DNA of 64,000 nt, from NCBI RefSeq assembly GCF_024662215.1, contig NZ_CP096115.1:2108001-2172000 (forward strand), read 5' to 3'. The stretch comes from Methanoplanus endosymbiosus (GTDB taxonomy: Archaea; Halobacteriota; Methanomicrobia; Methanomicrobiales; Methanomicrobiaceae). This document shows positions 12,949-35,084 of the stretch, piece by piece; position 1 is the stretch's first letter, and each line of letters opens with the position of its first letter. The notes under the pieces are model-generated. The model worked only from the letters and a program-made list of their open reading frames with translations, searched no databases and was not told the DNA's origin. A program made the translations under genes and the position numbers.

Positions 12949-13328
12949 AGGGTCACACCTCCCATATCTCTGAATAATTCTTCAACCGTTTTTAAATCCT
13001 CATCTGTTTCTTCAATTCTGACAGGTGTTGATTTGAAATCCGGCATTCCTGTGCCATGTGTCTCATGGGAGGTTATGACATTGCAGTAAGGGCCGTAAGC
13101 TATGAATATCATGCCCGCTGTTAGTGTGTTGTCCTCGACTGCTGCCATAACAACTTCTCCGTAATTGCTGATTATTTTTATATGATTTCCTTCGTTAAGT
13201 CCGAGATCCATCATATCGAGCGGATTCATTCTGCATGCAGATGTCTCTTTTTTGTAATCTGCCGACAGTTTTCTTTCCACCCCCACTCCCTGTTTAACAG
13301 TTCTTCCGGTAATCATGTGAAATATCAT
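12945..13328 (-). CDS. fwdD: Formylmethanofuran dehydrogenase subunit D, second copy
   Basis: This 127-residue molybdopterin-dinucleotide-binding subunit has MITGRTVKQGVGVERK at the N-terminus and HGTGMPDFKSTPVRIEETD at the C-terminus. It is the first gene of the second fwd operon. The start ATG at 13328 is about 40 bases downstream of an AT-rich TATA-like stretch on the minus strand (around 13368-13378, read as TTATAAATATTAA). It lacks a strong Shine-Dalgarno sequence. It is shorter at its C-terminal region than many fused counterparts but normal for FwdD. Confidence 0.92.
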   Translation of the reverse strand: MIFHMITGRTVKQGVGVERKLSADYKKETSACRMNPLDMMDLGLNEGNHIKIISNYGEVVMAAVEDNTLTAGMIFIAYGPYCNVITSHETHGTGMPDFKSTPVRIEETDEDLKTVEELFRDMGGVTL

Positions 13329-13638
13329 ATGGATCTCCGATTCTCCGGTTATTATCCCGAATTTTAATATTTATAATGCTGAGTAATAACTACTTATTTC
13401 GCAATTAAATTAAAGGTTTGTTCTTTGTTTGAAATTAAAGAAACGTGGTTTTGTCTGACATGTTAATTATTGTGGTCTGTTAATTAAATGTTGTTTATAA
13501 TTTCTGATTATTTTGAAATGACTTTGGGCAGAATCCTTTCTGTCTCTGACTGATGACAGGTTGTTCAGGTTCTGGATTTTCTTCCTGATGATCCGGGTTT
13601 TCAGTTACTTCTTCAGTTTACGAAAAAAACAGGCAGAA
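13329..13638 (-). promoter_or_regulatory. Upstream region of the second fwd operon
   Basis: No gene is seen in this AT-rich stretch. A minus-strand TATA-like element lies near 13368-13378, giving an expected start site around 13345. Two direct copies of TGTTAATTA occur at 13461-13469 and 13478-13486, resembling TGTTAA elements near the moe operon and the two modA genes. They might be operator half-sites for a Mo/W regulator, but the composition is AT-rich and the match may be chance. Confidence 0.4.
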
Positions 13639-13728: not shown

Positions 13729-13767
13729 TCTGTTTTTAAAAACCGGAAAGATCAGATATTTCTGATC
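13729..13767 (-). terminator. Terminator of the moeA operon
   Basis: GATCAGA (13750-13756) and TCTGATC (13761-13767) form a 7-base stem with a TATT loop, flanked by CCGG on both sides. On the minus strand this is followed by CCGGTTTTTAAAAA, a T5 tract. The hairpin overlaps the stop codon of the MoeA-fusion gene, which is the last gene of the operon. Confidence 0.65.
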
Positions 13768-15605
13768 TCCCCGGTATTTGCAGTGTCATACCCGCCAAGG
13801 GAGGTTAGCTGTGATTTGAATTCGTCACTCTTTATTATCTCAAGTATTGCGGTAATCCTTTCGTCCTGAATGGATTCTGCCGGAATTGCAAGTTCATACC
13901 TCTCCTTTGCAACCGGACTGAATTTCAGGCCGAGTGCTTTTGCCGCACTATATACACACATGCCCCCGTCCGCCTCACCGTTTTTAACCGCAAGCGCGAC
14001 ATCGAGGTGTGTGGTCATCTCCCTGTCATAACCATTGACGGCTGAAGGGGTGATGCCATGCTCATTAAGCATGTAGTCAAGCAGTATTCTTGTCCCTGAT
14101 CCCTTCTGCCGGTTTACATAACTTAGTTCAGTTATTTCATCAAAACCGGCTCCTGATACAGATGCAATGCCCTGTTCCCTCTCTGCAACACAGAATAGTG
14201 AGATCTCCTTATCCGGAAGATATTTTCTGATGTAGGAGACATTGTAATCACCGTCATCTGAGAGAAGGTGTACAGGCGCGGCATGGCAGTAGTTCTTCTT
14301 AAGTGCCAAAACCCCGCCCATGCTTCCGGAATGCACAGAAAATACCTGGATGCCCTTCTCTGATGCAAGGCTTGCAAGATAGTCGAGGCATGGGTCATGG
14401 CTGCCGACAATTAATAATGAATTGTCTGCAAGGTCGGGTGTGACGGTAAATGTCGCTTCTGTTCTCTCTCCGGAAGAGATTCCTTCGGATTCTGCCGGAA
14501 TTTTAATGTATGCATTTGCCCTGACGGCAGACATCTGCACTCCTGCTCCTCTTGACATCGGCACGCCGATATAGCGCCCCTCCACCTTTCCGACAGACAT
14601 CATCACAAATTCATCGGTTCCGATTGGTGAATGAAGCGATGTTGATAGTTCGATGTCGGTTCTGTACCTGTAAGGGCTTTTGAATCCGTACATTTCGGCC
14701 ATCGGCATTACTATCTCACGCATGATGGTCATGGCGGCAAGCGGGTATCCGGGGAGACCTATGACGGGCTTACCGTCAATTCTGCCGATTATTGCCGGTT
14801 TTCCAGGTTTTATGGCTATGCCGTGAATGAGAACCTCACCAAGTTCTGCAATGACGGTTGCTGTATGGTCCTTTGTTCCGGCAGAAGAGCCTGCTGATGT
14901 GATGAGAAAGTCGTTCTCTGCAATGCCTTTCTTTACGGCGTTTTTGATCAGGTCAAAATCATCTTCAACAATCGGGTAGCGGGTGGAGCAGATGCCGGCT
15001 TCACCAAGGATTGCGCCTGCCATGATGGAATTGCTGTCTATCACCTTTCCCGGCTCAAGTTCGCTCCCCGGTTCAAGCAGTTCCGATCCTGTGGGTATAA
15101 TTCCGGCTTTAAGAGAGAGAACATCCACTTCAGAGACTCCATAGCTTGCAAGGGCGGCAGTGTCGTTGGATCGTATCCTGTGCAGTGATGGGATTATCAT
15201 CTCAGATTCTCCTATATCCTCACCGACAGGCCGTACATGCTGATACGGTGCTGCTGCTTTCCTGATAGCAAATCCGCCTTCTGCCTCCCAGGTGTCTTCG
15301 ATCATTATGACTGCGTCATAGCCGGACGGGATTATATTTCCGGTGTTGACTCTCTTAAAATCTGTAATTCTGACCGTTTTTGCCTCAGATGCACCTTTTG
15401 TCTCTTCTGATTTTACGGCTATGCCGTCCATTGCAGAGAGGTGAAGCATGGGAACTGAGTACTTTGAAAAGACCGGCCCTGCTGATATCTTTCCGGGTGC
15501 GTCCTGAAGAGTTGTTTTTTCTCTCCCGGGAATCAGTGAAAATTCTCTCTTTATTGTATCCTTTGCCTCTTTTAAGGATACCATATCAAGATAGCGTTTT
15601 ACCAT
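13752..15605 (-). CDS. moeA: MoeA-like molybdopterin molybdotransferase fused to a PBP-like (LysR substrate-binding-type) domain
   Basis: The 617 residues comprise a MoeA region (about 1-400; signatures SAMDGIAVK, TGNIIPSGYDAVIMIED, SAGSSAGTKDHT, IKPGKPAIIG, GLPGYPLAAM) and a C-terminal domain of about 200 residues. The latter begins LLIVGSHDPCLDYLASLA and resembles the periplasmic-binding-like domain known in MoeA/LysR-type fusions. MoeA inserts molybdate or tungstate into adenylylated molybdopterin; the extra domain could sense metal or ligand, which is inference. It is the third and last gene of the operon, overlapping the preceding moeA by 7 bases. Two MoeA paralogues in one operon may separate Mo from W insertion. 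Confidence 0.9.
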   Translation of the reverse strand: MVKRYLDMVSLKEAKDTIKREFSLIPGREKTTLQDAPGKISAGPVFSKYSVPMLHLSAMDGIAVKSEETKGASEAKTVRITDFKRVNTGNIIPSGYDAVIMIEDTWEAEGGFAIRKAAAPYQHVRPVGEDIGESEMIIPSLHRIRSNDTAALASYGVSEVDVLSLKAGIIPTGSELLEPGSELEPGKVIDSNSIMAGAILGEAGICSTRYPIVEDDFDLIKNAVKKGIAENDFLITSAGSSAGTKDHTATVIAELGEVLIHGIAIKPGKPAIIGRIDGKPVIGLPGYPLAAMTIMREIVMPMAEMYGFKSPYRYRTDIELSTSLHSPIGTDEFVMMSVGKVEGRYIGVPMSRGAGVQMSAVRANAYIKIPAESEGISSGERTEATFTVTPDLADNSLLIVGSHDPCLDYLASLASEKGIQVFSVHSGSMGGVLALKKNYCHAAPVHLLSDDGDYNVSYIRKYLPDKEISLFCVAEREQGIASVSGAGFDEITELSYVNRQKGSGTRILLDYMLNEHGITPSAVNGYDREMTTHLDVALAVKNGEADGGMCVYSAAKALGLKFSPVAKERYELAIPAESIQDERITAILEIIKSDEFKSQLTSLGGYDTANTGEIRNI

Positions 15606-16801
15606 AGAATCACCTCAACATTTTCTCCTGCTTCCAGTCCTTCAGAGCCTGCCGGAATTTTTAACACGCCGTCACTGTTGATGAGCGTATTTAACAGACC
15701 TGATTTCCCGAATACGGGTACTGCACCATCAGGGGTTATCTTAACCCTGATGTAGTCCTCCCTACCCTGTGCTGATGAGATATTCTGCGTAAGGGTCATA
15801 TTTTTCGTTGAGAATTCCGCCTCCCGGTCCCTGTATGCCTCAAGCAGTTCTGATATGAGTATGTGCAGGACAACGTAGGCGGATGCCGGATGTCCGGGCA
15901 GTCCGATTACAGGTTTTTCAAGTGCCTTTCCGATTATGGTCGGTTTTCCGGGTGAGATGGCAATGCCGTGTATCAGGACTTCTCCGAGTTCATCGATAAT
16001 CAGTGATGTGTTGTCCCTGAGATCTTTGGAACTGCCCCCGGAGATGAGAACGATGTCACACTCTTCTGCGGCTGTTTTTACAGCCGAAAATAGTGTCTGC
16101 CTGTCGTCTGCGACAATGCCGTATCTCTTAGGTATGCAGCCGTGCTTCTCTGCAAAGCCTGAACAGAGCATCGAGTTTACATCCCTTACCTTCCCGAATC
16201 CGGGCACTTCCCCGACAGGAACAAGTTCGTTTCCGGTTGAGATGATACCGACAACCGGTCTTCTGAATACGCTGATTTTTAAAAAACCGAGCGCGGCAAG
16301 CACCCCGCATTCCTGCGGCCTCAGGGTGGTTCCTGCCTTTAAGACAACTTCAGATTCTGCAAAGTCCTCATTGGCAAAGACGATGTTTTCACCGTCTGCC
16401 ATAGGCCGGTAGATGAGCACCTGATCGCCTATCTCCTCACAGTACTCAATCATTGCAACGGCATCGGCACCATCCGGAACATTTCCTCCGGTCGGGACAT
16501 ATGCGCAGCTGCCCGGCTTGATCTCAAATGCTGCGGGCTGACCCATCTCAACCCTGCCTGTGTAGTCAGGCATTGCGGGGAGTGATTCTGATGCGCCGAG
16601 CGTGTCTCTGGAAAAGACCGCATAACCGTCAACTATAGATCTTGAAAAACCCGGAAGATCCATTGGAGAGGTAATATCCTCTGCCAGTGTTCTTCTGTGG
16701 GATTCTGTGAGATCTGTTATCTCTGTCTCTTTTTTTCCGGCTATGCTTTTTAATGTGATTTTTGCAGATTCTACTGATTTTAGTGATAAAAACAGGCTCA
16801 T
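15599..16801 (-). CDS. moeA: Molybdopterin molybdenumtransferase MoeA
   Basis: This 400-residue protein is a standard MoeA: N-terminal SRSIVDGYAVFSRDT, PTGGNVPDGADAVAMIEY, the MoCF-biosynthesis core ISGGSSKDLRDNT, and SPGKPTIIGKA followed by GLPGHPASAYV. It catalyses metal insertion into the molybdopterin cofactor needed by both Fwd enzymes. Its start overlaps the stop of the 61-codon upstream gene in an ATGA arrangement, and its end overlaps the MoeA-fusion gene. It lacks the C-terminal PBP-like extension of its neighbour. Confidence 0.95.
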   Translation of the reverse strand: MSLFLSLKSVESAKITLKSIAGKKETEITDLTESHRRTLAEDITSPMDLPGFSRSIVDGYAVFSRDTLGASESLPAMPDYTGRVEMGQPAAFEIKPGSCAYVPTGGNVPDGADAVAMIEYCEEIGDQVLIYRPMADGENIVFANEDFAESEVVLKAGTTLRPQECGVLAALGFLKISVFRRPVVGIISTGNELVPVGEVPGFGKVRDVNSMLCSGFAEKHGCIPKRYGIVADDRQTLFSAVKTAAEECDIVLISGGSSKDLRDNTSLIIDELGEVLIHGIAISPGKPTIIGKALEKPVIGLPGHPASAYVVLHILISELLEAYRDREAEFSTKNMTLTQNISSAQGREDYIRVKITPDGAVPVFGKSGLLNTLINSDGVLKIPAGSEGLEAGENVEVILW

Positions 16802-16983: not shown

Positions 16984-17294
16984 ATACTGTATCTGATCTT
17001 TTGATCAGAATAGTTTATCGTTATGTCTGAACTTTTCATGAATGTAATGTGGTTGTCTATTGTGGGGTTGTTGTTTACATGATCGATTTGTCTATTTTGT
17101 TAAATTTATTGAATTTATAATCGCAAATGTTAAGTTCAATTAAAATATATTTTATTTTGCCGACCCTGTAAATATTACGGGATTAAAAGATCTTAAAATG
17201 GGATAAAGTTGGCAATGCCACAATGACACCGCTCTTACATGCCGGAATTTTCCGGTTTTCTTTTTTTTGGTAATTTATACTCTTTGATCGTTTT
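16984..17294. promoter_or_regulatory. Region between the moeA operon and the VWA operon
   Basis: No gene is seen in this roughly 310-base AT-rich stretch. It holds the promoter of the minus-strand moe operon and the 3' end of the minus-strand VWA operon. TGTTAA occurs at 17098-17103 (followed by ATTTA) and at 17129-17134 (followed by GTTCAATTA), similar to elements near modA. TATTGTGG at 17059-17066 also occurs upstream of the second fwd operon (13468-13475). Confidence 0.35.
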
Positions 17295-19804: not shown

Positions 19805-20719
19805 TTATGCTGCTCTCCGGAAAAATGCTGAGAGTTTCAGATGAAGATCCCTGTAAGGGTCGGATGTTATAATGTTTAACTCCGGAATTCTGTTCTTTCT
19901 GAATAATTGTGAGAGATCTCTCTGGTATTCTTCTGTTATCTCCCTGTACCTCTCCCTGAAATACCTGTCAGATGTATCGATCATCATCTGTTCACCTGTT
20001 TCAGGATCTGAGATCTCCACCAGGCCAATGTCCGGCAGTTCAGTTTCATGACTGTCTGATACTCTTATTGCCTGAACGTCATGCTTCTTTCCAAGGATTG
20101 ATATGGCCTCTGAGAAATCAGGTGAGTCAAAGTCTGAGATGATTATAATATGGCTCTTCCGTTTAAGTCTTGAGAGGAGAAATTCTGCGGCATTCTTTAT
20201 GTCTGTTCTCCTGGAAGCTGTTTTATGCGAGATTATTGTGTTTATGGCCAGTGCGGAGTGTCTTCTTCCCTTGCGTGCCGGAATAAATCTCTCTATTTCA
20301 TCGGTGAATAAGAGAATGCCTGAGGCATCCCCGTCTTTTAGTAATGAGTAAATTATTGTCGCTGAGATCTCAAGGATTTTTAAGTCCTTTGAGATCTCTG
20401 TCCCGAAGGAGGAGGATGCCGAACGGTCGATCATCAGATATACTGCCCTCTCACGCTCTTCGTGGTATATTCTTACATGGGGCTTTCTGTATCTTGCAGT
20501 GACCTTCCAGTCCATTGATCTGATGTCATCGCCGTACTCGTATTCTCTTATATCTGCAAGATCGATGCCGCCTCCCCTGAATAGTGAACTGTGAATGCCC
20601 GTCTGTGTTCTCTCGGTCCGGCTGCGGCTGATTATTCTGATTCTGCTGACAATCTCCAGGCAATCTTTTACGGAATATCCGGCAAATGATGAAAAACTCT
20701 CTTCATCTTTGGAGTTCAA
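19805..20719 (-). CDS. DUF58 domain protein
   Basis: This 304-residue protein carries the DUF58 signature YGDDIRSMDWKVTARYRKP followed by a VWA-like region beginning VYLMIDRSASSSFG. It is a soluble partner of MoxR ATPases in the MoxR-DUF58-VWA clusters found in bacteria and archaea. The start overlaps the moxR stop by 4 bases. No signal peptide is visible, so it should act on the cytoplasmic side. Confidence 0.9.
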   Translation of the reverse strand: MNSKDEESFSSFAGYSVKDCLEIVSRIRIISRSRTERTQTGIHSSLFRGGGIDLADIREYEYGDDIRSMDWKVTARYRKPHVRIYHEERERAVYLMIDRSASSSFGTEISKDLKILEISATIIYSLLKDGDASGILLFTDEIERFIPARKGRRHSALAINTIISHKTASRRTDIKNAAEFLLSRLKRKSHIIIISDFDSPDFSEAISILGKKHDVQAIRVSDSHETELPDIGLVEISDPETGEQMMIDTSDRYFRERYREITEEYQRDLSQLFRKNRIPELNIITSDPYRDLHLKLSAFFRRAA

Positions 20720-21735
20720 GGGATCTTCACCTTTAAGAGAATCTCATCAATTATCTCTTCTGTACTGATCCCGTCTGCTTCGGCCTTATAATTCAGGATT
20801 ATTCTGTGTCTCAGAACCGGACGGGCCATCTCCCTTAGATCGTCCGGGATGACATAATCCCTCTTCTCCATCATTGCCTTTGCCTTTGCGGATAATATCA
20901 GACTTATTGATGCCCTCGGTGATGCCCCGAATTCGATATAGTCTTTATGCGTTATTCCGTATTTTTCCGGGTGCCTTGTTGAATCAACGATCTCCGCTGC
21001 GTAATTTTCAACAGGAGAACCGCAGTATATCTTTCTTATTTCTGACTGTATCTCCAGAATGCCGCTGTTATCTATTATTTTTTCCGGGGACGGGCTGATG
21101 CCGCCTGTAAAATTCCTGATAATCTGAATCTCTTCCTCTTTTGACGGATAGTTCATCATCAGCTTGAGCATAAATCTGTCAGTCTGCGCCTCAGGCAGCG
21201 GGTATGTGCCTTCTGATTCTATTGGGTTTTGTGTTGCAAGGACAAAAAAAGGCGGAGTTATGCCGTGCCTGTCGCCCTGTATTGTAACCTGCTTCTCCTG
21301 CATCGCTTCAAGAAGTGCGGACTGGACCTTTGGCGGGGCACGGTTTATCTCATCGGCAAGTATTATGTTTGAGAATACCGGCCCTTTTACCGTTTCAAAG
21401 GATGACTTCTCAAATCTGTATATTTTTGTGCCTGTGATGTCAGCCGGAAGAAGGTCTGGTGTAAACTGTATTCTGCTGAAATTGCAGCCTGTACATTCGG
21501 AGAGTGTCTTTACAAGCAGTGTCTTTGCAATGCCGGGAACTCCCTCCAAAAGGACGTGGCCCCCTGCTGCAAAGGCTATTATTAATTCCCGGATTGCACT
21601 CTCGTGTCCGATTATTACTTTTTTTATCTCTGATTCGAGGAGGAGAAGTTTCTCAGAATAGCTGTCCGGAGATTTATCCGTGATGTTTTCATCTATCTTT
21701 GGCCTTTTATGTTTATCTTCCGGCATTAAATTCAC
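20716..21735 (-). CDS. moxR: MoxR family AAA+ ATPase
   Basis: This protein of about 339 residues has Walker A GVPGIAKTLL, Walker B ILADEINRAPPKVQSALLEAMQE, sensor ATQNPIESEGTYPLPEAQTDRF, and the C-terminal lid region beginning GASPRASISLILSAKA. MoxR ATPases are chaperones that assemble or insert metal cofactors into partner complexes. Here it heads a four-gene operon next to Mo cofactor genes, which fits but does not prove a metal-insertion role. The start is GTG 21735 or ATG 21726. Confidence 0.93.
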   Translation of the reverse strand: MNLMPEDKHKRPKIDENITDKSPDSYSEKLLLLESEIKKVIIGHESAIRELIIAFAAGGHVLLEGVPGIAKTLLVKTLSECTGCNFSRIQFTPDLLPADITGTKIYRFEKSSFETVKGPVFSNIILADEINRAPPKVQSALLEAMQEKQVTIQGDRHGITPPFFVLATQNPIESEGTYPLPEAQTDRFMLKLMMNYPSKEEEIQIIRNFTGGISPSPEKIIDNSGILEIQSEIRKIYCGSPVENYAAEIVDSTRHPEKYGITHKDYIEFGASPRASISLILSAKAKAMMEKRDYVIPDDLREMARPVLRHRIILNYKAEADGISTEEIIDEILLKVKIP

Positions 21736-21948
21736 AGATAAGTTATTGAAGTTAAATATTTATGAAATTATCATGTCCTGTGGCAGGATCTGATTTATGT
21801 TTGGCACCATGTTGTAAATGTAGTTAATTTAACTCAAAAATAAATTCTGACATTAAATGTGAGGATTTATATGGTTTCTGAAATAGAGAGTTATTGGTTA
21901 TTTCAAAATTATTTATATCTCATACTTGTTTAACTTCGGTTGGTTCTC
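21736..21948. promoter_or_regulatory. Divergent promoter region of moxR and the DUF3344-ECF operon
   Basis: It contains a palindrome AGTTAA-T-TTAACT (21822-21834). The longer motif GTTGTAAAT, three bases, GTTAATTTAA (21811-21832) recurs with only the three central bases changed at 40642-40663, upstream of modA. A TATA box TTTATAT (21912-21918) sits about 26 bases before an expected start near 21941, implying a leader of only a few bases ahead of ATG 21949. Which divergent gene the palindrome controls is not decided by position. Confidence 0.55.
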
Positions 21949-24900
21949 ATGGTTTCTGAAAGATTTAATTCGTTTATTCCGGTACTAAAAATTCTGGCTG
22001 TAATATTTATATTGTCTATATCTGTTCAGTCAGTGGGGGCGAAGAGTGCCTCTCTGCCTGATTATAACAATCTGTATATTCAGACTGCAAATGATCCCCG
22101 CTTTGATGACTGGGGCAACGGGACATACTGGTTTTGGTTCCCTGAAAATGCGGGCCTTAATACCCTGCATATTACTGATGATTATACTGACTCCTACGGG
22201 CAGGTTACCCGGACTGCGGAGATGTCAGGATCTTTTTATATCACAGATACGGGGGGGATGAATTATAAAGATGACATTCTTCTTCTTCTGGCTGTAAATG
22301 GTTCTGTAAGTGATAATTTCTCAGTAAATCTCAGATGCAACGGTTTACAGTGGACACCCAATTCAACCGGACATATTCCTCCTGTAGAGAGCGAGGTCAC
22401 TTATGTGAAGGACTGTCTGAATGCAGACTTTAATAAGGATAATTTCTCCGTTTATGGTGGAAATAACGTAAAGCAGAACTGGAAACTTTACAATTCCTCC
22501 GATTATCCGCTTTACTACGGGCAGGATGTTTCAGATGCCGGCAATTCATTTAAGCTGATGTTCATTGATCTGAATGCCGGAGTTTTAAATGCTCAGAAAC
22601 TTGGTTATACTTCACTTAAGAACAGTGGTTCACTGAAGGTCAGTTATGAATTCAGCAATCTTGATGACTGTTATGCAGCATTCAATGTCTATGCCTACGC
22701 AAAGATGCCTGAGCTTGACACCCGCAGTGTGGATAAGACTGTGCAGTGGACCAACAGGCTCAATGATGAGTCCGGAAGATCAGTCAGCGGATATTCGGTC
22801 TGGTCCCTCTTTGTTCCTAAACTGACTTCTGTAACTGTTTCTCCGGAATCATCGGTGGTTGAACCTGCATCTGGCCTTCAGATGACTGCAAAGGGTCTGG
22901 ACCAGGGCGGCAATGAGATTCCGGGTGTAATATTTGACTGGCAGTCTGATGATGCCACTGTAGGATCTGTAAATTCAGACGGCCTCTTTACGGCAGTCAG
23001 CCGGGGTATATGCAATGTAACCGCATCAAACGGAAGCATAACCGGGAAGAGCCGGATCGTTGTCTCTCCGGCCGTATCTCCCCTTTACGTTGCTGGTGAC
23101 GGAAGCGGCAATTATACAGCAATATCGGATGCAGTAACCTTTGCCCACGCAGGAACTGAAATTATTGTAAGAGACGGCATATACACAGAGAGTGTGGATA
23201 TTCCAAGAACTCTCTTTATACGTTCTGAAAACGGGCCGGATAAAACAGTTCTCGATCTATCGGGACTTCCGGCAAATACTGACGGATTTGTATTCAATGC
23301 AGATTCTGTAAATGTTTCCGGCTTTAATATAACAGGTGCGTCCGGTGACGGAACCACAGGCGGTTTTGCAGTAAGGTTCAATTCAGCATCTGACAGTATC
23401 CTGCATAATAATGTGATCTCCGGAAATTCAGACGGAATATATTTCAATTCCGGAGATAACAATACAGTTTCCGGTAATGTTATCAGCTGCCCGGAGTCTG
23501 CTGATCACTATGCCCTTTCTATCAAGAAAAATTCCGGTGCGAATAAAATTTTCCGCAATTCCTTTTTATCCGGAAATCTGAAGAAAGCAGGGCAGTCGTC
23601 AGGAAATCTCTGGAATACACAGGATATATGGCAGTACACCTATTCGGACGGTTCTGAAGTCTATCAGGGCAGTTCAAAGGTGGGAAATTTCTGGAAAGGT
23701 TATGCCGGTGTTTCCGGGGATAAGCCCGGTATCGGTTCCTCTGCATATGAAATTCCTGATGTCGGAACTGACAGCTATCCGCTAATTTCACCGGTCTGCA
23801 ACTATACATTCGGTTCTTCAATTCCGGCAGGGGATACATTCTATGTCGGCCCTGATGAGGATTTCAGGACGATTCAGTCGGCGGTCGATGCCGCAAATCC
23901 GGGTTACAGGGTCATTGTCAGGGACGGGACATACTATGAATCGGTCAGTATCCGCAAAAACCTGACAGTCCGCTCTGAGAACGGTGCCGGAGCAGTGACA
24001 GTTCAGTCTGCCGGTTACAGGGGATTTTTCCTGAATGCAGATGGGATTCTGCTTGACGGGTTTACGGTTTCAAATGTTTCAGATGAATCGGATTCCGGCG
24101 GTATTTTCCTGTATAATGCCTCAGACTGCACAGTTACCAACAATTCGGTCGGTGGTGACGGTGTCGGTATTGTTATAGACGGAGATTCGGACAGGAATCT
24201 TATATCCTTCAATACAGTCAGCCTGAACTCCGATAAGAAGAGGATGTTCTCGGTAAAATCTGCCGAATGCGGGGATAACCGGGTATGTGAAAACACTTTC
24301 TCAAAAGGAAAGGGGCCAAAGGATGAGGGTTCCGGAAATCTCTACAACACCACTGATGTCGTAAAGAATTATGTCTATAAAGGACGGCAGAGTTCCTCCT
24401 TCCTTGGCAATTACTGGACTGGTGCGGATAAGACTGATTCTGACGGAAACGGCATCGCCGACAGTCCTTATTCAGACGGTGTAACTGATAATTACCCGCT
24501 TGTATCTGAATTCAGCAGTTATTATCTGAACGGTGATTATAACGGAGATGTTACTGAAGACGTTCCGCTCAACCCTCCGGAGTGCACATTCATTGGTGTT
24601 CCCGGTTCACAGTCTGTGGTAGTTGACAACAGTTCAGGACATGCCACAGTATCAGGCAACAGCATAAGGCTTTCAGAGAACGGCTTTGATATAATCATAA
24701 ACACAGTCAATCCTCCGGGTGGAAACATCGGCTCGATAACGGGTGATATAAGTTCGGTTGAGATTGTTACGTCAGAGATTAGAACTAATTTCAACAGTAC
24801 AGGTGCAGCGGGAGGTTCTGTATCAGTGAACCTGACCGGACTTTCTCCGGGATCTGAAATAAACTCCTCTGTAAACAGAACTGTTTCGGCAGGTGATTTA

Positions 24901-25938
24901 TCCGTATTCTCATCCATTGTCTCTGCCGGCGGACTAAATCCCGGAGATATTGCATTTACACTTCGTATTGTAAAATCAGCAGGATTTGATGGTCTTGTAA
25001 ACAATGCAAATGTAACTATGAGAATAGGTTCCGGGTGGGTTGATGCACATGGCGGACCTTCAGCAGTCCGCATTTTAAGAATTGCTGACAGCGGTGACGG
25101 CCAGGTGCTTTCGACAACCTTTACAGGTCCGGTTAATGGTGTTTACACCTTTTACGGCTACAGCCCGTCCGGTCTTTCACTCTTCGGCCTGTCATCCGTC
25201 TCTGCTCCCACGCCATCAGGAGATACAGGTTCATCAGGCAGCAGCGGCGGTGGTGGATCAAGTTCAGTCGGAGTTGTATTTAAGAAGGGAGTAACTGCCG
25301 GAGAGGAAGTTGATTTCATAATTGACGAGACGGCTATATCTGAGATCTCCGTTGCTGCAAAAGTTGATATAAAGGAGATTATGCTCACCGCAGAAAAGGG
25401 CAGGATGCCTTCAGGAGCAGTGAAGCCGTCCGGAGATGTTTACCAGTATATCAGCGTAACGCTTTACAAGGCAGATCCGTCAGAGATTGAGAGAACAACT
25501 CTCAGTTTTGCCGTTGATAAGAGTGCTTTTACAGGCGGATATGATCCTGAACTGACTGAGCTTGTTTATTATAATGCTGATGAAGAGTCATGGCAGAGCC
25601 TCTCCACTGTTTATGATGGTGAGAGAGGCAGTTCATATGAATTCTTCGCTGACAGTGCCTCGCTTGGGAACTTTGCAATAGTTCTGCATAAGGGTGATGC
25701 CTCTGCCGGAGAGAAAGTTCCGGCTGAGACTGTAAAATCAGGTCTAACAGAATCAGAACAGTCATCCGGTGATGGTAACTCTGTTTCTGAAAAAGAGAAT
25801 AAAGAAATTCCTGCCAGACCATCAGGTCTTCTCTTCGGAGGTTGGCTTTCGGTAATTGGTGCAGTCTGTGTGACTGCACTCATATCATTTGCAGCATTAA
25901 GAAGAAGAGAATATGAAAATACCGGCAGAAGGAAGTAA
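21949..25938 (+). CDS. Large cell-surface protein: DUF3344, Big-like, two NosD-type beta-helices, PGF-pre-PGF domain, C-terminal anchor
   Basis: The 1329-residue secreted protein has a signal sequence (IPVLKILAVIFILSISVQSV), a DUF3344 region (about 35-285; AGLNTLHIT, SGSFYITDTGG, YGQDVSD), and a Big_2-like domain (about 290-375; ASGLQMTAKGLDQGGNEIPG, NVTASNGSITG). Two right-handed beta-helix NosD-like blocks follow, each opening with a DGIY/DGTY-ES repeat (about 380-615 and 620-860). A PGF-pre-PGF-type domain (about 1110-1240) precedes a C-terminal helix (GGWLSVIGAVCVTALISFAA) and an Arg/Lys tail. It is probably an S-layer-associated or envelope-anchored binding protein. I chose ATG 21949 over TTG 21940. 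It is the first gene of the operon leading to the ECF importer, 24 bases before the next gene. Confidence 0.88.
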   Translation: MVSERFNSFIPVLKILAVIFILSISVQSVGAKSASLPDYNNLYIQTANDPRFDDWGNGTYWFWFPENAGLNTLHITDDYTDSYGQVTRTAEMSGSFYITDTGGMNYKDDILLLLAVNGSVSDNFSVNLRCNGLQWTPNSTGHIPPVESEVTYVKDCLNADFNKDNFSVYGGNNVKQNWKLYNSSDYPLYYGQDVSDAGNSFKLMFIDLNAGVLNAQKLGYTSLKNSGSLKVSYEFSNLDDCYAAFNVYAYAKMPELDTRSVDKTVQWTNRLNDESGRSVSGYSVWSLFVPKLTSVTVSPESSVVEPASGLQMTAKGLDQGGNEIPGVIFDWQSDDATVGSVNSDGLFTAVSRGICNVTASNGSITGKSRIVVSPAVSPLYVAGDGSGNYTAISDAVTFAHAGTEIIVRDGIYTESVDIPRTLFIRSENGPDKTVLDLSGLPANTDGFVFNADSVNVSGFNITGASGDGTTGGFAVRFNSASDSILHNNVISGNSDGIYFNSGDNNTVSGNVISCPESADHYALSIKKNSGANKIFRNSFLSGNLKKAGQSSGNLWNTQDIWQYTYSDGSEVYQGSSKVGNFWKGYAGVSGDKPGIGSSAYEIPDVGTDSYPLISPVCNYTFGSSIPAGDTFYVGPDEDFRTIQSAVDAANPGYRVIVRDGTYYESVSIRKNLTVRSENGAGAVTVQSAGYRGFFLNADGILLDGFTVSNVSDESDSGGIFLYNASDCTVTNNSVGGDGVGIVIDGDSDRNLISFNTVSLNSDKKRMFSVKSAECGDNRVCENTFSKGKGPKDEGSGNLYNTTDVVKNYVYKGRQSSSFLGNYWTGADKTDSDGNGIADSPYSDGVTDNYPLVSEFSSYYLNGDYNGDVTEDVPLNPPECTFIGVPGSQSVVVDNSSGHATVSGNSIRLSENGFDIIINTVNPPGGNIGSITGDISSVEIVTSEIRTNFNSTGAAGGSVSVNLTGLSPGSEINSSVNRTVSAGDLSVFSSIVSAGGLNPGDIAFTLRIVKSAGFDGLVNNANVTMRIGSGWVDAHGGPSAVRILRIADSGDGQVLSTTFTGPVNGVYTFYGYSPSGLSLFGLSSVSAPTPSGDTGSSGSSGGGGSSSVGVVFKKGVTAGEEVDFIIDETAISEISVAAKVDIKEIMLTAEKGRMPSGAVKPSGDVYQYISVTLYKADPSEIERTTLSFAVDKSAFTGGYDPELTELVYYNADEESWQSLSTVYDGERGSSYEFFADSASLGNFAIVLHKGDASAGEKVPAETVKSGLTESEQSSGDGNSVSEKENKEIPARPSGLLFGGWLSVIGAVCVTALISFAALRRREYENTGRRK

Positions 25939-25962
25939 AAAGATTATTTGGAGATAGTATAA

Positions 25963-26667
25963 ATGAAAATTTTTGTTGCTATGGATGACACTGACAATCT
26001 GAATTCACGCGGTACAGGAAAACTTGCAAGGGATACTGCGGCAGCGATTATGAAGGAGTTTCATGTGGACGGGATAACCCGGCATCAGCTCTTTGTACAT
26101 GAGGATATTCCATTTACATCGCATAACAGCTGTGCTGTGATTCATGTTGAGGCACGTGAGACGGATGACAAGGAGTGGCTCTTTGAGACTGCAAAAGAGT
26201 GCATGCTCAATGATTTTGTTGAGGGGAGCGATCCCGGTCTTGCAGTGGCATGTGCTGATGAGGTCATCCCGCCGCTGATCGCTTTTGGCAGGGATGCACA
26301 GAGGGTTGTCTTAAACCAGGAGAAGGCAAGGGGTATTGCAAAAAATCTCGGCATTCGTCTTGAGGGGCTTGGCGGTACTGAAGACGGTGTCATCGGGACA
26401 ATGGCCGGGCTTGGACTTGCAAAAGGCGGCAATGACGGCAGGTACCTGTTGTGTGGTGGTGTAAGGGATATGACCGGACCGGCTGATGTTGACAGTCTCA
26501 TTGAAGCAGGAATTGATGCTGTATTTAACATTCACGGAGGGGAAGTGAAGGAAGGCAGGATCATTATTGAGGAAGGAAAATCTGCAAAGCCCTGTCCTGT
26601 TGATGGCCGGAAAATCCTCTTTGTGGAGGATATAGACGGTAAGTATCACGCTGTTAAGAGAGGATGA
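25963..26667 (+). CDS. TiaS-like DDTDN protein (short form)
   Basis: The 234 residues open with VAMDDTDNLNSRGTGKLA, the ATP-binding DDTD motif of the TiaS (tRNA-Ile2 agmatinylcytidine synthetase) N-terminal domain. They continue with GSDPGLAVAC and GLGGTEDGVIGTMAGLGLA, which match the TiaS middle region. Full TiaS is about 420 residues with OB and zinc domains; these are absent, so this is a stand-alone core with a different job or a paralogue. The ATG lies 24 bases after the surface-protein gene, with a weak GGAG upstream, and its stop overlaps the next start (ATGA). Its presence in a transporter operon is unexplained. Confidence 0.75.
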   Translation: MKIFVAMDDTDNLNSRGTGKLARDTAAAIMKEFHVDGITRHQLFVHEDIPFTSHNSCAVIHVEARETDDKEWLFETAKECMLNDFVEGSDPGLAVACADEVIPPLIAFGRDAQRVVLNQEKARGIAKNLGIRLEGLGGTEDGVIGTMAGLGLAKGGNDGRYLLCGGVRDMTGPADVDSLIEAGIDAVFNIHGGEVKEGRIIIEEGKSAKPCPVDGRKILFVEDIDGKYHAVKRG

Positions 26668-27479
26668 CCGGGACAGAGATATTCAGGAGAAGAGTCGGAA
26701 TCGCCTTTGTGGTTCTGATTCTCTTTGCCGGATCTATGTTTGCCCTTCAGGTCGGCGGTGAGGAGTGGGTAAAGGGTATAAGCCCTGATAAGATAACCCC
26801 TCTTTCTGATGCCGGGATGAAGGAGACCTTTTACCGGAGCGATTTTAATTACGGGCCGCAGGAGTGGAGGCCGTATAAGACTCCGCTGAATATCTCAAAT
26901 ACCCCTTATGGGGAGAATGAATGGTACCTGATGTTTGTAAAGGCCAATGCAACACCATACGGCGGCAACCCATCCTTTCACAGGAGGGGGAATGTGCTTG
27001 TGAATTATTCATTTGAAAACCTTGCCGGAACGGCGGCTTTTCATGTTATCGGTTTTGATGTAACTGCGAAATGCAGGACAAATCAGCAGGACGGCTATGG
27101 CTCCTCTTCGTATTATGTTACCGGAAGTTCTGCTGCCGGCACTTCTCTTCCGGAATCTTCCCCGATGAGTTCATGGAATAATGTGGCTGTTCTTCCTCCG
27201 GGTGAGTATGATACTGATGAGGGTGTGGAGGAGTATTACTATTTCATATATTTTGATCCTCTTTCAGGTGGTGCCGGTTCTCTTCACATTACCGATGAGA
27301 ATACTCAGGAGAGGATAAAGGGTGGAGTTATTGAGACTACAGAGCAGTCCGGAAGTTTTTATGTTACCCATACGGGAGGCAGTCTTGTTGAGGATCTGCT
27401 TATTGTCGTCTGTGTCAGTGAGGTGCAGCCTGATGATTTCAGGCTTGATATTGAGACCTCTTTTGTGAGGAGGGAATGA
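26664..27479 (+). CDS. DUF3344-type membrane-anchored surface protein with permuted halves
   Basis: This 271-residue protein has an N-terminal membrane anchor (VGIAFVVLILFAGSMFALQ) and an extracellular domain. It contains the same two half-motifs as the neighbouring DUF3344 proteins but in the opposite order. The FNYGPQEW...YLMFVKANA...NYSFENLAGTAAFHVIGF half comes first, and the GAGSLHIT...SGSFYVTHTGG...PDDFRLDI half comes last. Both ends overlap neighbours by four bases, so it is tightly coupled to the TiaS-like gene and the ECF S-component gene. A ligand-binding or capture role at the cell surface is inference. Confidence 0.75.
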   Translation: MTGTEIFRRRVGIAFVVLILFAGSMFALQVGGEEWVKGISPDKITPLSDAGMKETFYRSDFNYGPQEWRPYKTPLNISNTPYGENEWYLMFVKANATPYGGNPSFHRRGNVLVNYSFENLAGTAAFHVIGFDVTAKCRTNQQDGYGSSSYYVTGSSAAGTSLPESSPMSSWNNVAVLPPGEYDTDEGVEEYYYFIYFDPLSGGAGSLHITDENTQERIKGGVIETTEQSGSFYVTHTGGSLVEDLLIVVCVSEVQPDDFRLDIETSFVRRE

Positions 27480-28042
27480 ATTTGCGTATTGAGAAGTACT
27501 TTTCACTGAACGAAATATTGCTGCTGACTCTTTGTGGTGCCCTGATATTTGTCTTAAAAGTTATTTTTAAGCTGCCGATTCACCTGCCCGGTCATTCCGG
27601 TGCATTCTGGGTAATTCCTCTGATAATCGGAGTATCATTTGTTAAAAAACCCGGTTCAGGACTCTACATAGGACTTGTATCCGGCCTTCTGGCTTCTTTT
27701 TTTGGAATAGGGGCACTTCATGTTTTTGATTTAGTAAAATACCTCTCCATAGGTGCAGCAACTGATCTGTTCGCGGTTTTATTTGCTTACAGATTTGATA
27801 ATGTGGCGGTCGCAGTGATTACGGGTATTTTTGCAAATGTAATTAAAATGCTTGTAAATTATTCCATTCAGCTGGTTCTTGGTGTACAGCCTTTCTTCAT
27901 TATACTTGGAATTGGTGTCAGTTCTGTGACGCACATAGTATTTGGTGCTATTGGCGGGTTAATATCTGCATTTATTATTCAGAGGCTCATTAGGGCAGGT
28001 CTTGTAGGTGAAAATAATGAATCATCCTCTGATTTCAGTTGA
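27476..28042 (+). CDS. ECF transporter S component (substrate-binding membrane subunit)
   Basis: This 188-residue protein has about five to six hydrophobic helices (LNEILLLTLCGALIFVLKVI, FWVIPLIIGVSF, YIGLVSGLLASFFGIGAL, AVAVITGIFANVIKML, FIILGIGVSSVTHIVFGAIG). The size and layout fit S components of energy-coupling-factor importers. It lies directly before fused ABC ATPases and an EcfT protein. The substrate is not evident: I see no clear ThiT, BioY or RibU signature. The start ATG 27476 overlaps the upstream stop; the downstream ATPase gene begins inside its 3' end. Confidence 0.8.
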   Translation: MNLRIEKYFSLNEILLLTLCGALIFVLKVIFKLPIHLPGHSGAFWVIPLIIGVSFVKKPGSGLYIGLVSGLLASFFGIGALHVFDLVKYLSIGAATDLFAVLFAYRFDNVAVAVITGIFANVIKMLVNYSIQLVLGVQPFFIILGIGVSSVTHIVFGAIGGLISAFIIQRLIRAGLVGENNESSSDFS

Positions 28043-29606
28043 GGATTTTTCATTCTCCTATAACTCCGGGTCAGTTTCCCAGAGAAAAAAAGCTCTTTGT
28101 AGTGTCAATCTTGAAATATGCAGTGGTGAAAAGGTTATCATAGCCGGATCCAGTGGTTCGGGTAAATCAACCCTAATTCAGGCATTAACCGGGATTATCC
28201 CGTGGTCGGTTAAAGGATTGATTCGTGGCAGTGTTCATGTCAGAGGGATGGATACAAAAGATTACAGCATCTCTGATATCTCATCGGTAGTCGGCTATGT
28301 ATTTCAGAATCCTGATCATCAGATTATAACAAACGATGTTGATTCAGAGATTGCTTTTGGTCCTGAACAGAAAGGTATGGATACGGCAGATATAGAATCT
28401 GAAATTGATCTGGTAACAGAGGCTCTCGGAATAAGCAACCTGAGGGGACGTGAGATTCCTGAACTTTCCTGGGGCGAAAAACAGAAAGTTGCCATAGCCT
28501 CTGTCCTTGCCCTGAAACCTGATCTTCTTCTTCTTGATGAACCACTGTCGGGACTTGACAGTAATTCAGCAGTACGCCTTCTTAAATATCTGAGTATGGT
28601 AAATGAAAAATATGGCACAGCAATAGTGGTGGTTGAGCACAGAATTGATCATCTTGACTCTTTTGCAGACAGAGCGGTTCTTCTGGAAGACGGAAAAATT
28701 GTCTCCGACATATCTGCCGGGGAATATTTTTCCGCAGAATATTCTGATAAGTACAGACCGTCCCGGAAGAGTGCTTCAGAAGAGATCATTTGCCATACAG
28801 ATATTCCGGATAATCTTTTTTACCCGGAATTATTGGGTGGTAAAAATAATCCGGGTTTAAATATCCGTAATATTAATCGTCCGATCCCGTCATTGAAGGT
28901 CAGGAATCTGTTTTATGCATATCCCGGACAGATAAAATATGTCCTTAAAGGCCTGAATGCCGATTTCTTTCCCGGAGAAGCTACTGTGATCTTTGGATCA
29001 AATGGTTCGGGTAAGAGTACTTTTGGCAGGCATCTCAACGGACTTTTAAGACCGGTGTCCGGATCAGTTATTCTGAATGGCGAAGATCTGTCAGGTTATA
29101 CTGTTGCTGAGGCGTCACGGCAGGTATCATTACTCTCTCAGCATGCGGATTATCAGCTGTTTGGAGAGACCATATGTGAGGAGGTTACATTTGGTCCCAG
29201 GAATATATACCCTGATTATGCCTGTATTGACAGAAATACAGAGGATGTTATGGAGATGCTTGATATTCTCCGTCTTGGAATGGATGCCCGTCCTTTAAAA
29301 CTGTCAGTCGGGGAGAAGCAGCGTGTTGCCATAACGGGCTGCCTCGCGACGGATACTCCGGTTGTAGTTATGGACGAACCAACCCTTGGACTTGATTTCA
29401 GTCTTAAGGAGAGGCTTGGACTGTTAATTATGTCCTTAAAAAGGCGGGGTAAAACAGTGATAGTCTTCACACATGACCGCGAATTTGGTTATTCTTTTGC
29501 GGATAAAGTCTGCATTTTCAGAGACGGGGTTTTGCACAATGTTACGGGGAACACTGATAATTCCCCGTATGGTGCTGGCTATAAAGATATGGGGGACTTT
29601 CAGTGA
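28017..29606 (+). CDS. ecfA: ECF transporter duplicated ATPase (A-A' fusion)
   Basis: This protein of about 529 residues contains two ABC ATPase domains. The first has Walker A GSSGSGKST (about 44-52), signature LSWGEKQKVAIA and LLLDEPLSGLD. The second has GSNGSGKSTFGRHL, LSVGEKQRVAITG and VVMDEPTLGLD. This is the fused EcfA-EcfA' arrangement. I prefer ATG 28017 with GGTGA at 28007-28011 over GTG 28008; either way it overlaps the S-component gene. It powers import by the S and T membrane subunits. Confidence 0.92.
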   Translation: MNHPLISVEDFSFSYNSGSVSQRKKALCSVNLEICSGEKVIIAGSSGSGKSTLIQALTGIIPWSVKGLIRGSVHVRGMDTKDYSISDISSVVGYVFQNPDHQIITNDVDSEIAFGPEQKGMDTADIESEIDLVTEALGISNLRGREIPELSWGEKQKVAIASVLALKPDLLLLDEPLSGLDSNSAVRLLKYLSMVNEKYGTAIVVVEHRIDHLDSFADRAVLLEDGKIVSDISAGEYFSAEYSDKYRPSRKSASEEIICHTDIPDNLFYPELLGGKNNPGLNIRNINRPIPSLKVRNLFYAYPGQIKYVLKGLNADFFPGEATVIFGSNGSGKSTFGRHLNGLLRPVSGSVILNGEDLSGYTVAEASRQVSLLSQHADYQLFGETICEEVTFGPRNIYPDYACIDRNTEDVMEMLDILRLGMDARPLKLSVGEKQRVAITGCLATDTPVVVMDEPTLGLDFSLKERLGLLIMSLKRRGKTVIVFTHDREFGYSFADKVCIFRDGVLHNVTGNTDNSPYGAGYKDMGDFQ

Positions 29607-30403
29607 AAAAAAAGGCGGGTGTAGCATATATTCCCGGTGACTCTGTTATCCACAGGCTTGATCCAAGGACTAAATTACTTATTATGATCTCTGTAAGTCT
29701 GACAGCTTTTCTTGTATCAGGTGTTTTTCTCATGTTGCCTGTATTTTTAACTGTACTTCTGCTGGTTTTTCTATCCGGAAATCCGGCCGGATGGGTCAGT
29801 TCAATGAAACTTATTCTCCCCCTGCTGATTTTTATAGTATTTATTGAACTGTTATTCTGTCCTGAAGATCCCGGCAGAATAATATATTCTGTGAATTTAG
29901 GACCTTTGAATGCTGTATTGAGTGAAGGCAGTATCAGTTATTCTCTGCTGCTTGGTTTAAGGGTTCTTTCAGTGACCGGAATTTCATTTTTATTTGTTCT
30001 GACTACAAAGTACAGTGATTTTGTTAAAAGTCTTCAGCTAATGAAATTTCCACCAATAATTTCATTTTCCCTTGGTTATGCCCTGAGGGCAACAACCACA
30101 CTGTCTGCTGATACCCGTGCGATAATGGATGCCCAGAGGTCAAGAGGCCTTGAATTTGACAGAAATTCATTGTTTAAAAACCGGAATAAATTACTTTCAC
30201 TATTTATTCCCATGACTGTGACAGTTTTAAACCGGTCCTCACAGGTGTCTGATGCCATGCAATGCAGGGGATATGGAGGCGGCAGTTCTGTCAGTATATA
30301 TAATCCTCCGTCTTTTGGCAGAAATGACTTTATTATCGCTGTAATTGTTGTATTTACAGAAATAATTCTGATAAATCTTTCATATTATGAGGTTCTACGA
30401 TGA
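29603..30403 (+). CDS. ecfT: ECF transporter transmembrane coupling subunit EcfT
   Basis: This 266-residue membrane protein has the conserved coupling-helix motifs AQRSRG (near 178) and QCRGYGG (near 220), which touch the ATPases in EcfT family proteins. Several hydrophobic segments precede them. The start is a GTG that overlaps the ATPase stop as GTGA; the stop overlaps the next start as ATGA. It completes an S-AA'-T importer. Confidence 0.92.
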   Translation: MKKKAGVAYIPGDSVIHRLDPRTKLLIMISVSLTAFLVSGVFLMLPVFLTVLLLVFLSGNPAGWVSSMKLILPLLIFIVFIELLFCPEDPGRIIYSVNLGPLNAVLSEGSISYSLLLGLRVLSVTGISFLFVLTTKYSDFVKSLQLMKFPPIISFSLGYALRATTTLSADTRAIMDAQRSRGLEFDRNSLFKNRNKLLSLFIPMTVTVLNRSSQVSDAMQCRGYGGGSSVSIYNPPSFGRNDFIIAVIVVFTEIILINLSYYEVLR

Positions 30404-33018
30404 CTGTTAATTTACTAAGTTATCCGGATAAAAAATTCCTGAAAAAAGCATTTTTAATTCTGTTTACGATCTCTCTGCTTGTTTCATGCACTTCTGCCGC
30501 AGATCTGCCCTCTAATCCTATTGCCGGTGCAATGCACGTAAATATCAATACCGCAAATTCGGGTGGATATTACATCAAATTCGACGGAGGCGGTTTAAAC
30601 GCATTACATATGACCACAAGTACCTCTGATTACTATGGTCAGCTTACAACCACTTCAATGCAGAGCGGAACGTTTTTCATCTCAGATACCGGCGGCAGGG
30701 GTTTTTTCAATAACATGCTGCTCATGATTGCCCTTAGAAAACCATCTGATGATGAAGAACAGATTCCTGATGACTTCAGAATTAAAATCCGTTCGAGCGG
30801 CTATAAATGGCCCTCCACAGGCGTACTGAATATGCCTCCTTCACCCGGTAACACTGAATATGTCTCCGGAGCAGTGGATCAGGCATTTACTTTGAGTTCC
30901 TTCGGCTACGGTCCTCAGAAGTGGAAACCTGCCGGGAATAACGATCCTCTGAACTATCCGATATATGGCGATCAGGATATGTCGGATTATGAGGAGTTTT
31001 ACATCTTCTTTGTGGATCTGAAAGTCGGAGCACTGGGTGAGAATTCCGGTTTTTCAGGACTGACGGACAACGGCATGGTAAAGGTCGAATACACCATTGA
31101 AAATCTGGATTCCGGCCTTGTCGCATTTAACACATATGGGTGGTGCGATGAGAACCAGGCAAATCAGGGTGCGGGAGTATCATGGACTAACAGAGTTTCA
31201 GGTGAGGGCACCAGCGGATATGTAGTAAACATTGTCGGTTCAGGCGGTGGTGAGGGAGGTTCTTCCTCCGGAAAACTTGATTACGGCTCTGACCGTTCAA
31301 GTTCATCAGAGAGCTGGAAGCCCAAAGTCGGAAACCTTAATATCTCCTCCATTCCTGAAGGGGCTAAAGTTTACCTGGACGGGGTGTATTCCGGACAGGA
31401 AACGAATGCGTCATTTGTTGATCTTCCGGCAGGGGATTATGTCATAACCCTTGAACTTGACGAATATGAGACCGCAGGGCCTGAGACCGTGACTGTCAAA
31501 AGCGGATATATCATTGAAAAGGGATATAACATGACCCGTGGATCAGGCTCATGCTTTGTCTCATCAATTCCTGACGGGGCTGACATCTTCATAGACGGTA
31601 CGGATACACTCTGGCATACCAATTCCCTGATTACAGATATAATCTCCGGAAACCATACCGTTACGGTTTACAGGGATGGTTATGAACCGCAGTCTTCCAA
31701 CGTCAGTATTAAAATGAATCAGAGATCAGAACTGAGCTTTACGTTTGGTGAGGAAGGTGCTGCACAGGAGACTTCCGGTGCATCCGGGGAAAGTCAGGGC
31801 ACCCCAGAATCAGATGCAGCACCTGCCATTTCCGTTCAGTCCGGTAAGCTTCCGGCTGAAAAAGAAGAGATAGGCAGAGAAGAGGAGGATTATGCAGATT
31901 CTCTCTCACAGGATGATGGCGGCATATTAAGCTTCATTACCGCACTCTTCGGAGGGTTCTTCTCTGCACAGCCTGATACAGCAGCTGACCAGTCTGAACC
32001 GGCAGGGCTTAAAAGTGACTCCTCAAAGGCCGATGCAGTGCATGAGGTGCCTGAAACAGCAGGGATAACAGAAATAACAGATCCGGTCACTCCTTCAGGT
32101 GAACTTCCTGGTGAGAATATATCTTCCGAAGCAACAGGAGGCCTTTATGTGACATCTTATCCGGATAATCTTGATATTATACTAAATGGTGTAAAGACAG
32201 ATTTCTCAACCCCACATTATTTTTACGGTCTGAAAGAGGGCTCGCATAAGGTGAAGGTGACTGCTTCAGATGCAGCCAAATCAGCACAGAAGACTGTATT
32301 TGTCATTGCAGGTGAGGATAGTTACGTAAAGCTTGAGCCTGAGGTTTTCACACAGAAAGTTCCGGTTACAGTTCAGTCAAAATACTTTAAAGACTCTGTC
32401 TTCCTGATTGAAGGCGAATATCCGGAGTACCCCTTCCCTTCAAAAGTAAACCTGGAGAAGAGCGGGACATTTATTACTGTGGAAAAGGACGGAGTATTTT
32501 ATACATTTAATACCGGTTATCGGGAGGAGAATTCAGCAATAAATATCGGAAATTCCGGCCTAAAGGATACTGCCGGCAGTATCACTGTGACAACAGAGCC
32601 TGATGGTGCTTCTGTTACAATAGACAGCCATAACACAGGCTTAAAAACTCCATGCACAATTGGTGGGATTACAGAAGGGCATCACACTCTTGTGGTGTCA
32701 AAAGCCGGCTATTATCCGGAAGGGGAGAATTTACGGTTCGTAAACACCGGAGATTTGAGGGATTCAGAGTATGATTTCATGCTTGATGAGTACTCATACG
32801 GCAGCCTGTTTATTGACAGCAGTCCTCCCGACAGTATGATCTATCTGAAAGGGAGTTATACCGGTGTTAAAACCCCGCATAAATTTGAATATATACCGAT
32901 TGGCAGTTATGACGTTGGGATCGTGTATAACCGCACAGTCTTTAAGGAAAGTATTGTAACTGTTGAGCCGTATGAGAAATCCGGAATAACTGTTTATAAT
33001 ACAACTCTCGATCTATAA
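30400..33018 (+). CDS. Secreted DUF3344 protein with five PEGA repeats
   Basis: The 872 residues begin with a signal peptide (FLKKAFLILFTISLLVS, CTSAA), followed by a DUF3344 region (about 40-270; GGLNALHMTTS, FISDTGG, YGPQKWKP). A Ser/Gly linker leads to two PEGA domains (about 305-440; SSIPEGAKVYLDG, SSIPDGADIFIDG), an acidic low-complexity linker (about 455-590), and three more PEGA-like domains (SYPDNLDIILNG, TEPDGASVTIDS, SSPPDSMIYLKG). PEGA domains mediate surface or scaffold contacts. A C-terminal membrane anchor is not visible, so retention may be through the N-terminus or by binding. It is the last gene of the operon, overlapping ecfT by four bases. Confidence 0.85.
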   Translation: MTVNLLSYPDKKFLKKAFLILFTISLLVSCTSAADLPSNPIAGAMHVNINTANSGGYYIKFDGGGLNALHMTTSTSDYYGQLTTTSMQSGTFFISDTGGRGFFNNMLLMIALRKPSDDEEQIPDDFRIKIRSSGYKWPSTGVLNMPPSPGNTEYVSGAVDQAFTLSSFGYGPQKWKPAGNNDPLNYPIYGDQDMSDYEEFYIFFVDLKVGALGENSGFSGLTDNGMVKVEYTIENLDSGLVAFNTYGWCDENQANQGAGVSWTNRVSGEGTSGYVVNIVGSGGGEGGSSSGKLDYGSDRSSSSESWKPKVGNLNISSIPEGAKVYLDGVYSGQETNASFVDLPAGDYVITLELDEYETAGPETVTVKSGYIIEKGYNMTRGSGSCFVSSIPDGADIFIDGTDTLWHTNSLITDIISGNHTVTVYRDGYEPQSSNVSIKMNQRSELSFTFGEEGAAQETSGASGESQGTPESDAAPAISVQSGKLPAEKEEIGREEEDYADSLSQDDGGILSFITALFGGFFSAQPDTAADQSEPAGLKSDSSKADAVHEVPETAGITEITDPVTPSGELPGENISSEATGGLYVTSYPDNLDIILNGVKTDFSTPHYFYGLKEGSHKVKVTASDAAKSAQKTVFVIAGEDSYVKLEPEVFTQKVPVTVQSKYFKDSVFLIEGEYPEYPFPSKVNLEKSGTFITVEKDGVFYTFNTGYREENSAINIGNSGLKDTAGSITVTTEPDGASVTIDSHNTGLKTPCTIGGITEGHHTLVVSKAGYYPEGENLRFVNTGDLRDSEYDFMLDEYSYGSLFIDSSPPDSMIYLKGSYTGVKTPHKFEYIPIGSYDVGIVYNRTVFKESIVTVEPYEKSGITVYNTTLDL

Positions 33019-33243: not shown

Positions 33244-33267
33244 TACTTACAGACAAATATTCAGGTG

Positions 33268-34299: not shown

Positions 34300-34307
34300 A
34301 CAATGAT

Positions 34308-34330
34308 TCCGGGATTCCCGGATTTTTTTT
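34308..34330 (+). terminator. Intrinsic-type terminator between tupA and tupB
   Basis: TCCGGG (34308-34313), loop ATT, CCCGGA (34317-34322), then T8 (34323-34330). It lies 9 bases after the tupA stop and 62 bases before tupB. Partial termination here would give more TupA than membrane and ATPase subunits, a common arrangement for binding-protein-dependent importers. Confidence 0.75.
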
Positions 34331-35079: not shown

Positions 35080-35084
35080 ACAAT

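Follow-up and report, generated by a model that had tools for sequence, protein, structure and literature searches.

To our knowledge, every Methanomicrobiales methanogen needs tungsten or molybdenum for formylmethanofuran dehydrogenase, the enzyme with which CO2 reduction begins. In bacteria and some archaea, the ModE regulon has a conserved promoter element for molybdate uptake and molybdopterin-related genes, and in sulfate-reducing bacteria TunR, a bacterial system, exerts tungstate-responsive control of transporters. Among archaeal factors, Tfx of Methanothermobacter, the DNA-binding regulator of fmdECB (PDB 1NR3), links Mo/W to control of formylmethanofuran dehydrogenase; it binds downstream of the fmdECB promoter, and transcription of tfx is itself repressed by tungstate (PMC3087415). 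EnfR of Thermococcus onnurineus belongs to the same family and binds an AT-rich pseudo-palindrome (PMC10570040). Beyond Tfx, we found nothing on archaeal Mo/W operators in the literature examined and, for Methanomicrobiales, no described Mo/W operator.

A repeated promoter element in a molybdenum/tungsten island

The window, the whole 64-kb stretch analyzed here, comes from a Methanomicrobiales methanogen and forms a molybdenum/tungsten island, which also holds a vWA/DUF58/MoxR operon, a MobB-MoaE fusion and mcr genes. The features used below are the following:

5010-8862: first fwd operon, with FwdB and FwdA
9177-13328: second fwdDBAC operon (by Pfam)
13479-13501, minus strand: site 4, weak; 4 mismatches, score 13.3
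13752-16801: two moeA genes (by Pfam)
17087-17121, both strands: site 3, weak; overlapping matches with 3 to 5 mismatches, scores 17.4, 16.7 and 15.0
20716-21735, minus strand: MoxR AAA ATPase, divergent from site 1
21811-21833, plus strand: site 1, 1 mismatch to TTTGTAAATNNNRTTAANTTAAC, the best match in the window; divergent moxR/surface-protein-ECF promoter
21940-25938, plus strand: large surface protein (NosD/beta-helix, Big_2, PGF-pre-PGF), first gene of the surface-protein/ECF operon
25963-33018, plus strand: ECF-type transporter genes (two unassigned proteins, ABC_cobalt/S, double ATPase, CbiQ/T) and a PEGA-repeat protein
33265-39265, plus strand: TupABC-like (binding protein at 33265) and WtpABC (binding protein at 36256) tungstate/molybdate transporters
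39344-40414, minus strand: MOT1-type molybdate transporter (PF16983)
40642-40664, plus strand: site 2, 2 mismatches; divergent MOT1/modA promoter, upstream of a modA TATA-like box near 40693
40651-40690: accessory weaker overlapping matches adjoining site 2 (GTTAATTTAATAATGTTAATTTTAA...), scores 17.0 at 40651 and 9.2 at 40668
40692-44988, plus strand: modA, modA, TrmO-like, modB, modC
44994-45344, minus strand: small unclassified protein of 116 aa with a winged-helix appearance and a weak GntR match
45652-46467, plus strand: homologue of molybdenum storage protein (PDB MoSto beta, E 6e-56)

The starting point was a sequence-only reading in which a 22-base motif was shared by two divergent promoters, with 19 outer bases identical around a variable central three. 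Read directly, 21811-21832 is GTTGTAAAT-GTA-GTTAATTTAA and 40642-40663 is GTTGTAAAT-TGT-GTTAATTTAA; the two 22-mers do differ in the central three bases alone, and the palindrome claimed at 21822-21834, AGTTAATTTAACT, is indeed perfect around one central T. At up to 3 mismatches to the 22-mer, these are the only two matches in the window; dinucleotide shuffles of the window averaged 0.01 matches, and none contained two. By pattern searches and targeted stretches, the motif also proved rare genome-wide, as that reading had proposed to check: across the complete genome of 3,163,021 bases, exact copies occur only at these two positions. The other matches comprise one with 2 mismatches and nine with 3, compared with two for the pattern read backward.

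Alignment of the matches yielded a longer element, TTTGTAAAT-NNN-RTTAA-N-TTAAC. Its information is concentrated at positions 1 to 9 and 13 to 23, with almost none in the three-base gap or at position 18. The original 22 bases fall one short of the full length: the conserved element has 23 bases, ending with the C at 21833. Division of the motif into nine, three and ten bases fits this anatomy, since the three gap bases are nearly uninformative in other species as well (0.21, 0.48 and 0.13 bits).

A position weight matrix (PWM) built from 26 sites outside the taxonomic family of the window ranked 21811 first (30.8) and 40642 second (24.9). None of 200 column-permuted matrices reached either of these scores, and the maxima of shuffled windows averaged 11.5 and went no higher than 20.4. 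The scores at sites 1 and 2 are partly circular because the consensus was grown from those sites; the target genes and the two weaker sites in the window are free of that circularity. Next in rank come the cluster at 17087-17121 (moeA), the accessory matches at site 2, a match in a coding region at 24994 and the match at 13479 (second fwd operon). Site 3 lies about 300 bp upstream of the moeA-moeA operon (MoeA by Pfam), and site 4 precedes the second fwdDBAC operon (Fwd subunits by Pfam) by about 150 bp.

Several details of the gene models deserve mention. The label DUF3344, given earlier to the gene at 21940, was not borne out; Pfam finds NosD, Beta_helix and Big_2, and NCBIfam finds PGF-pre-PGF. 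The ATG at 21949 is the likelier start of this gene, judging from the sequence, and a 12-bp direct repeat, ATGGTTTCTGAA, at 21871-21882 and 21949-21960 has its second copy at this likely start codon. The product of the first gene of the ECF operon (25963-26667), whose homologue in genome G002 begins with an MTIYLAMDDTD-like sequence, looks by eye like the N-terminal part of TiaS; homologues also lie near MOT1 in G057 and G032. Finally, the true start of MOT1 may lie upstream of 40414: at 40455-40480 there is a strong ribosome-binding site for MOT1 (AAGGAGGA), and between it and the annotated GTG lies an in-frame CTG that may be the start codon.

Conservation and targets of the element across Methanomicrobiales

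With the original motif at up to 3 mismatches, a search of 60 genomes gave many matches upstream of Mo/W genes in other genera. With the consensus at up to 2 mismatches, 55 matches were found in 36 of 150 Methanomicrobiales genomes, compared with 10 for the reversed pattern in the same genomes, all of them with 2 mismatches. Many genomes have no match at this threshold, implying that the motif drifts or is lost. At 3 mismatches, the count for the genome of the window is close to background (11 versus 5 for the control). Outside the order, only two of the sampled genomes had a match at 1 mismatch; one of these matches adjoins a moeA-like gene (L274), and the other falls within a gene.

When the window's proteins alone served as references, Mo/W genes lay within about 1.5 kb at 18 of 46 match loci, and ECF or surface genes at 6 others (24 of 46 in total). 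No such genes were found at any of 58 control loci (0 of 10 reversed-pattern, 0 of 20 tfx and 0 of 28 wHTH loci). By Fisher's test for Mo/W or surface genes, the difference gives P values of 0.003, 1.5e-5 and 4.8e-7 for these three sets, respectively. Five of the order's taxonomic families (f1 and f3 to f6) have the element. The sequence-only reading had named many unrelated genes, random positions or a lack of conservation in relatives as outcomes that would speak against it; what we see instead is that cross-family matches precede Mo/W and surface/ECF genes. Thus, a common element stands upstream of Mo/W transport and cofactor genes, just upstream of the following targets in relatives:

wtpA: L095, L113, L119
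modA: L087, L088, L100, L116
binding-protein/permease operons: L075, L081, L084, L086
tupA and storage-protein genes: L072, L123
moaA/moeA: L080
moeA: L091, L115
fwdD/B: L085, L125
fwdF (PDB 7bkb subunit F, E 1e-169): L112, L122
MolA-like or FecCD/Peripla_BP_2 ABC transporters: L040, L079, L083, L101, L114
ECF operon: L073, L074
surface proteins: L028, L092 to L094, L096, L118, L124
wHTH/Xre pair: L099, L121

The motif before the FecCD/Peripla_BP_2 transporters suggests that they are MolABC-type Mo/W importers; the binding protein at L083 weakly matches HI_1472 (E 1.6e-8), MolA of Haemophilus influenzae, a molybdate-binding protein.

The element is conserved at orthologous promoters in relatives for modA/MOT1, wtpA and the surface/ECF genes. 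In the congener, the 22-mer of site 1 is retained but for one base (L041); where site 2 would lie in its MOT1/modA promoter, the sequence differs and reads AATGTTAATTTGGTTAACTTAAC, retaining the core TGT-AAT-NNN-GTTAA-N-TTAA. Matches occur at the same promoter in G002, G013, G019 and Methanoculleus-type genomes. Among 28 MOT1 upstream regions from other genera, 43% had a match at P < 0.05, including TTTATACATTGGATCAAATTAAC in several genomes of family f4.

Some matches were set aside. Five identical 2-mismatch matches in the congener (G001; for example, L126 and L127) belong to a repeated element and probably do not serve as operators; those at L097 and L277 fall in the coding sequence of a radical-SAM gene and were discounted, and those at L078 and L098 could be explained away. 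A few matches precede genes with no known Mo/W link. In three genomes of one genus (L089, L090 and L117, near 1501), a match is flanked by a deoxyhypusine-synthase-like gene on one side and a TiaS-like or unassigned gene on the other, and no Mo/W gene is evident there.

Genome G002 helps to tell which divergent gene site 1 serves: its island is syntenic, and moxR there follows the surface gene with the same orientation. In that genome, matches precede the surface gene, the ECF operon, the PEGA gene, wtpA and a second surface gene; none of up to 4 mismatches was found before moxR. The site stays with the surface gene, making the surface-protein/ECF operon the likely target; moxR is probably not one. 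Mo/W control had been proposed for either the operon or moxR, and it is for the operon that the proposal survives.

We consider it highly probable (roughly 85%) that TTTGTAAAT-NNN-RTTAA-N-TTAAC, so far a putative operator defined by its sequence and its neighbors, is that of a Methanomicrobiales Mo/W regulon. A sequence-specific regulator would bind it upstream of the Mo/W uptake promoters (mod, wtp, tup and MolA-like transporters), as well as those for storage, molybdopterin synthesis and formylmethanofuran dehydrogenase and that of the surface-protein/ECF operon (21940-33018), and would adjust these genes to metal supply. From the target genes, we infer that the signal is molybdate or tungstate. 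By eye, likely TATA boxes lie near 21909 (surface gene) and 40693 (modA), with sites 1 and 2 upstream of them; such an arrangement would fit activation, or modulation from upstream, better than a simple block of the TATA box.

Candidate regulators and competing explanations

A search for ModE was negative in all 60 relatives, including the genome of the window, and positive in Escherichia coli, Methanosarcina acetivorans and other control genomes. Although ModE regulons cover the same functional class of targets, this absence led us to reject ModE as the regulator, and classical ModE control through a diverged box is very improbable. Tfx, in contrast, was found in 57 of 60 genomes, with a clear homologue in the genome of the window. 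Being nearly universal, its co-occurrence with the motif does not discriminate. G012, an assembly 96% complete, has a 3-mismatch site and no Tfx match. A scan of contigs for Tfx returned almost only Methanomicrobiales, and it was by Tfx homologues in named records that the order was recognized. Of 61 tfx promoters, 21% had a match at P < 0.05 and most had no clear one; the only strong match was in one Methanocorpusculum genome (L268, 20.4 bits), and a partial GTTAACTTAAC is present in the tfx promoter of the window's genome and of some members of its family. Separately, tfx promoters across the order (L158 to L177 and L194 to L273) have in common GTTAA-N-GAAAAGTGTTTAAAT, about 25 to 45 bp before tfx. 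A Tfx-family regulator is the most likely factor, as a candidate that we put forward tentatively, at somewhat less than even odds.

Other readers of the operator can be envisioned. Nearly all genomes of the order have a wHTH/Xre gene pair (L128 to L157, about 1500), in many cases with a TGTTAAC-NNN-GTTAACA palindrome at the start codon that is probably autoregulatory. That the small winged-helix family of this pair, and not Tfx, reads the operator is unlikely. In its favor, the palindrome is a close cousin of TGTAAAT-NNN-RTTAA, with the same half-site and three-base gap; the wHTH gene is present in 54 of 60 relatives; in G003 and G009 a 2-mismatch site of the Mo/W type precedes the pair by 52 bp; and G014 has a 3-mismatch match to the original 22-mer beside it (L027). 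However, in most genomes the promoter of the pair has only its own palindrome, the best match there in the window's genome has 8 mismatches, and the pair is not colocated with Mo/W genes. Still less probable as a general reader is the winged-helix-like protein encoded at 44994-45344, which 59 of 100 relatives share, in many cases beside MOT1 or mod genes. It is missing from the near-complete genomes G008, G047, G062 and G067 despite good sites in their Mo/W promoters, which weakens the case for a universal regulator, and the promoters of its own gene are not enriched for the motif. It is a candidate for a local regulator of MOT1; its single-sequence fold was uninformative (pLDDT 41).

The signal, too, could be broader than Mo/W, with the metal genes only part of a regulon that answers to trace-metal or C1-metabolism status. 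Surface proteins, ECF and FecCD-type transporters and a CobW-type protein among the targets would fit such a cue; the identifiable targets are overwhelmingly Mo/W genes, however, and even the FecCD-linked binding protein resembles HI_1472, so that we regard this reading as improbable. Both promoters are AT-rich and the motif is mostly A and T, but a chance likeness between them has next to nothing in its favor given the rarity of matches in shuffled windows and the conservation at Mo/W genes across families, with zero in controls.

Relation to described metal-responsive systems

New here are a putative operator with its list of targets and the finding that ModE is absent, and the metal-responsive regulator behind the predicted site appears to be undescribed. 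A defined motif together with a target list makes that regulator identifiable, and points to a likely role in Mo/W nutrition for unexplained giant surface proteins, for MolA-like transporters and for an ECF transporter. The fuller picture is one that we hold more cautiously, as a possibility somewhat short of an even chance: an order-wide, ModE-independent Mo/W regulon read by a Tfx-family (or other archaeal) factor, in which the surface proteins and ECF transporter would form an unrecognized Mo/W acquisition system.

The resemblance to the ModE regulon lies in the class of genes served; the difference is that no ModE gene is found in the 60 relatives, and the motif is unlike the TATA-rich ModE palindrome. 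The EnfR site, 36 bp long and in a codh promoter (PMC10570040), has no reported Mo/W role and by eye no clear match to the motif. Methanothermobacter Tfx, for which we found no operator sequence in the literature examined, has a single operon as its known target.
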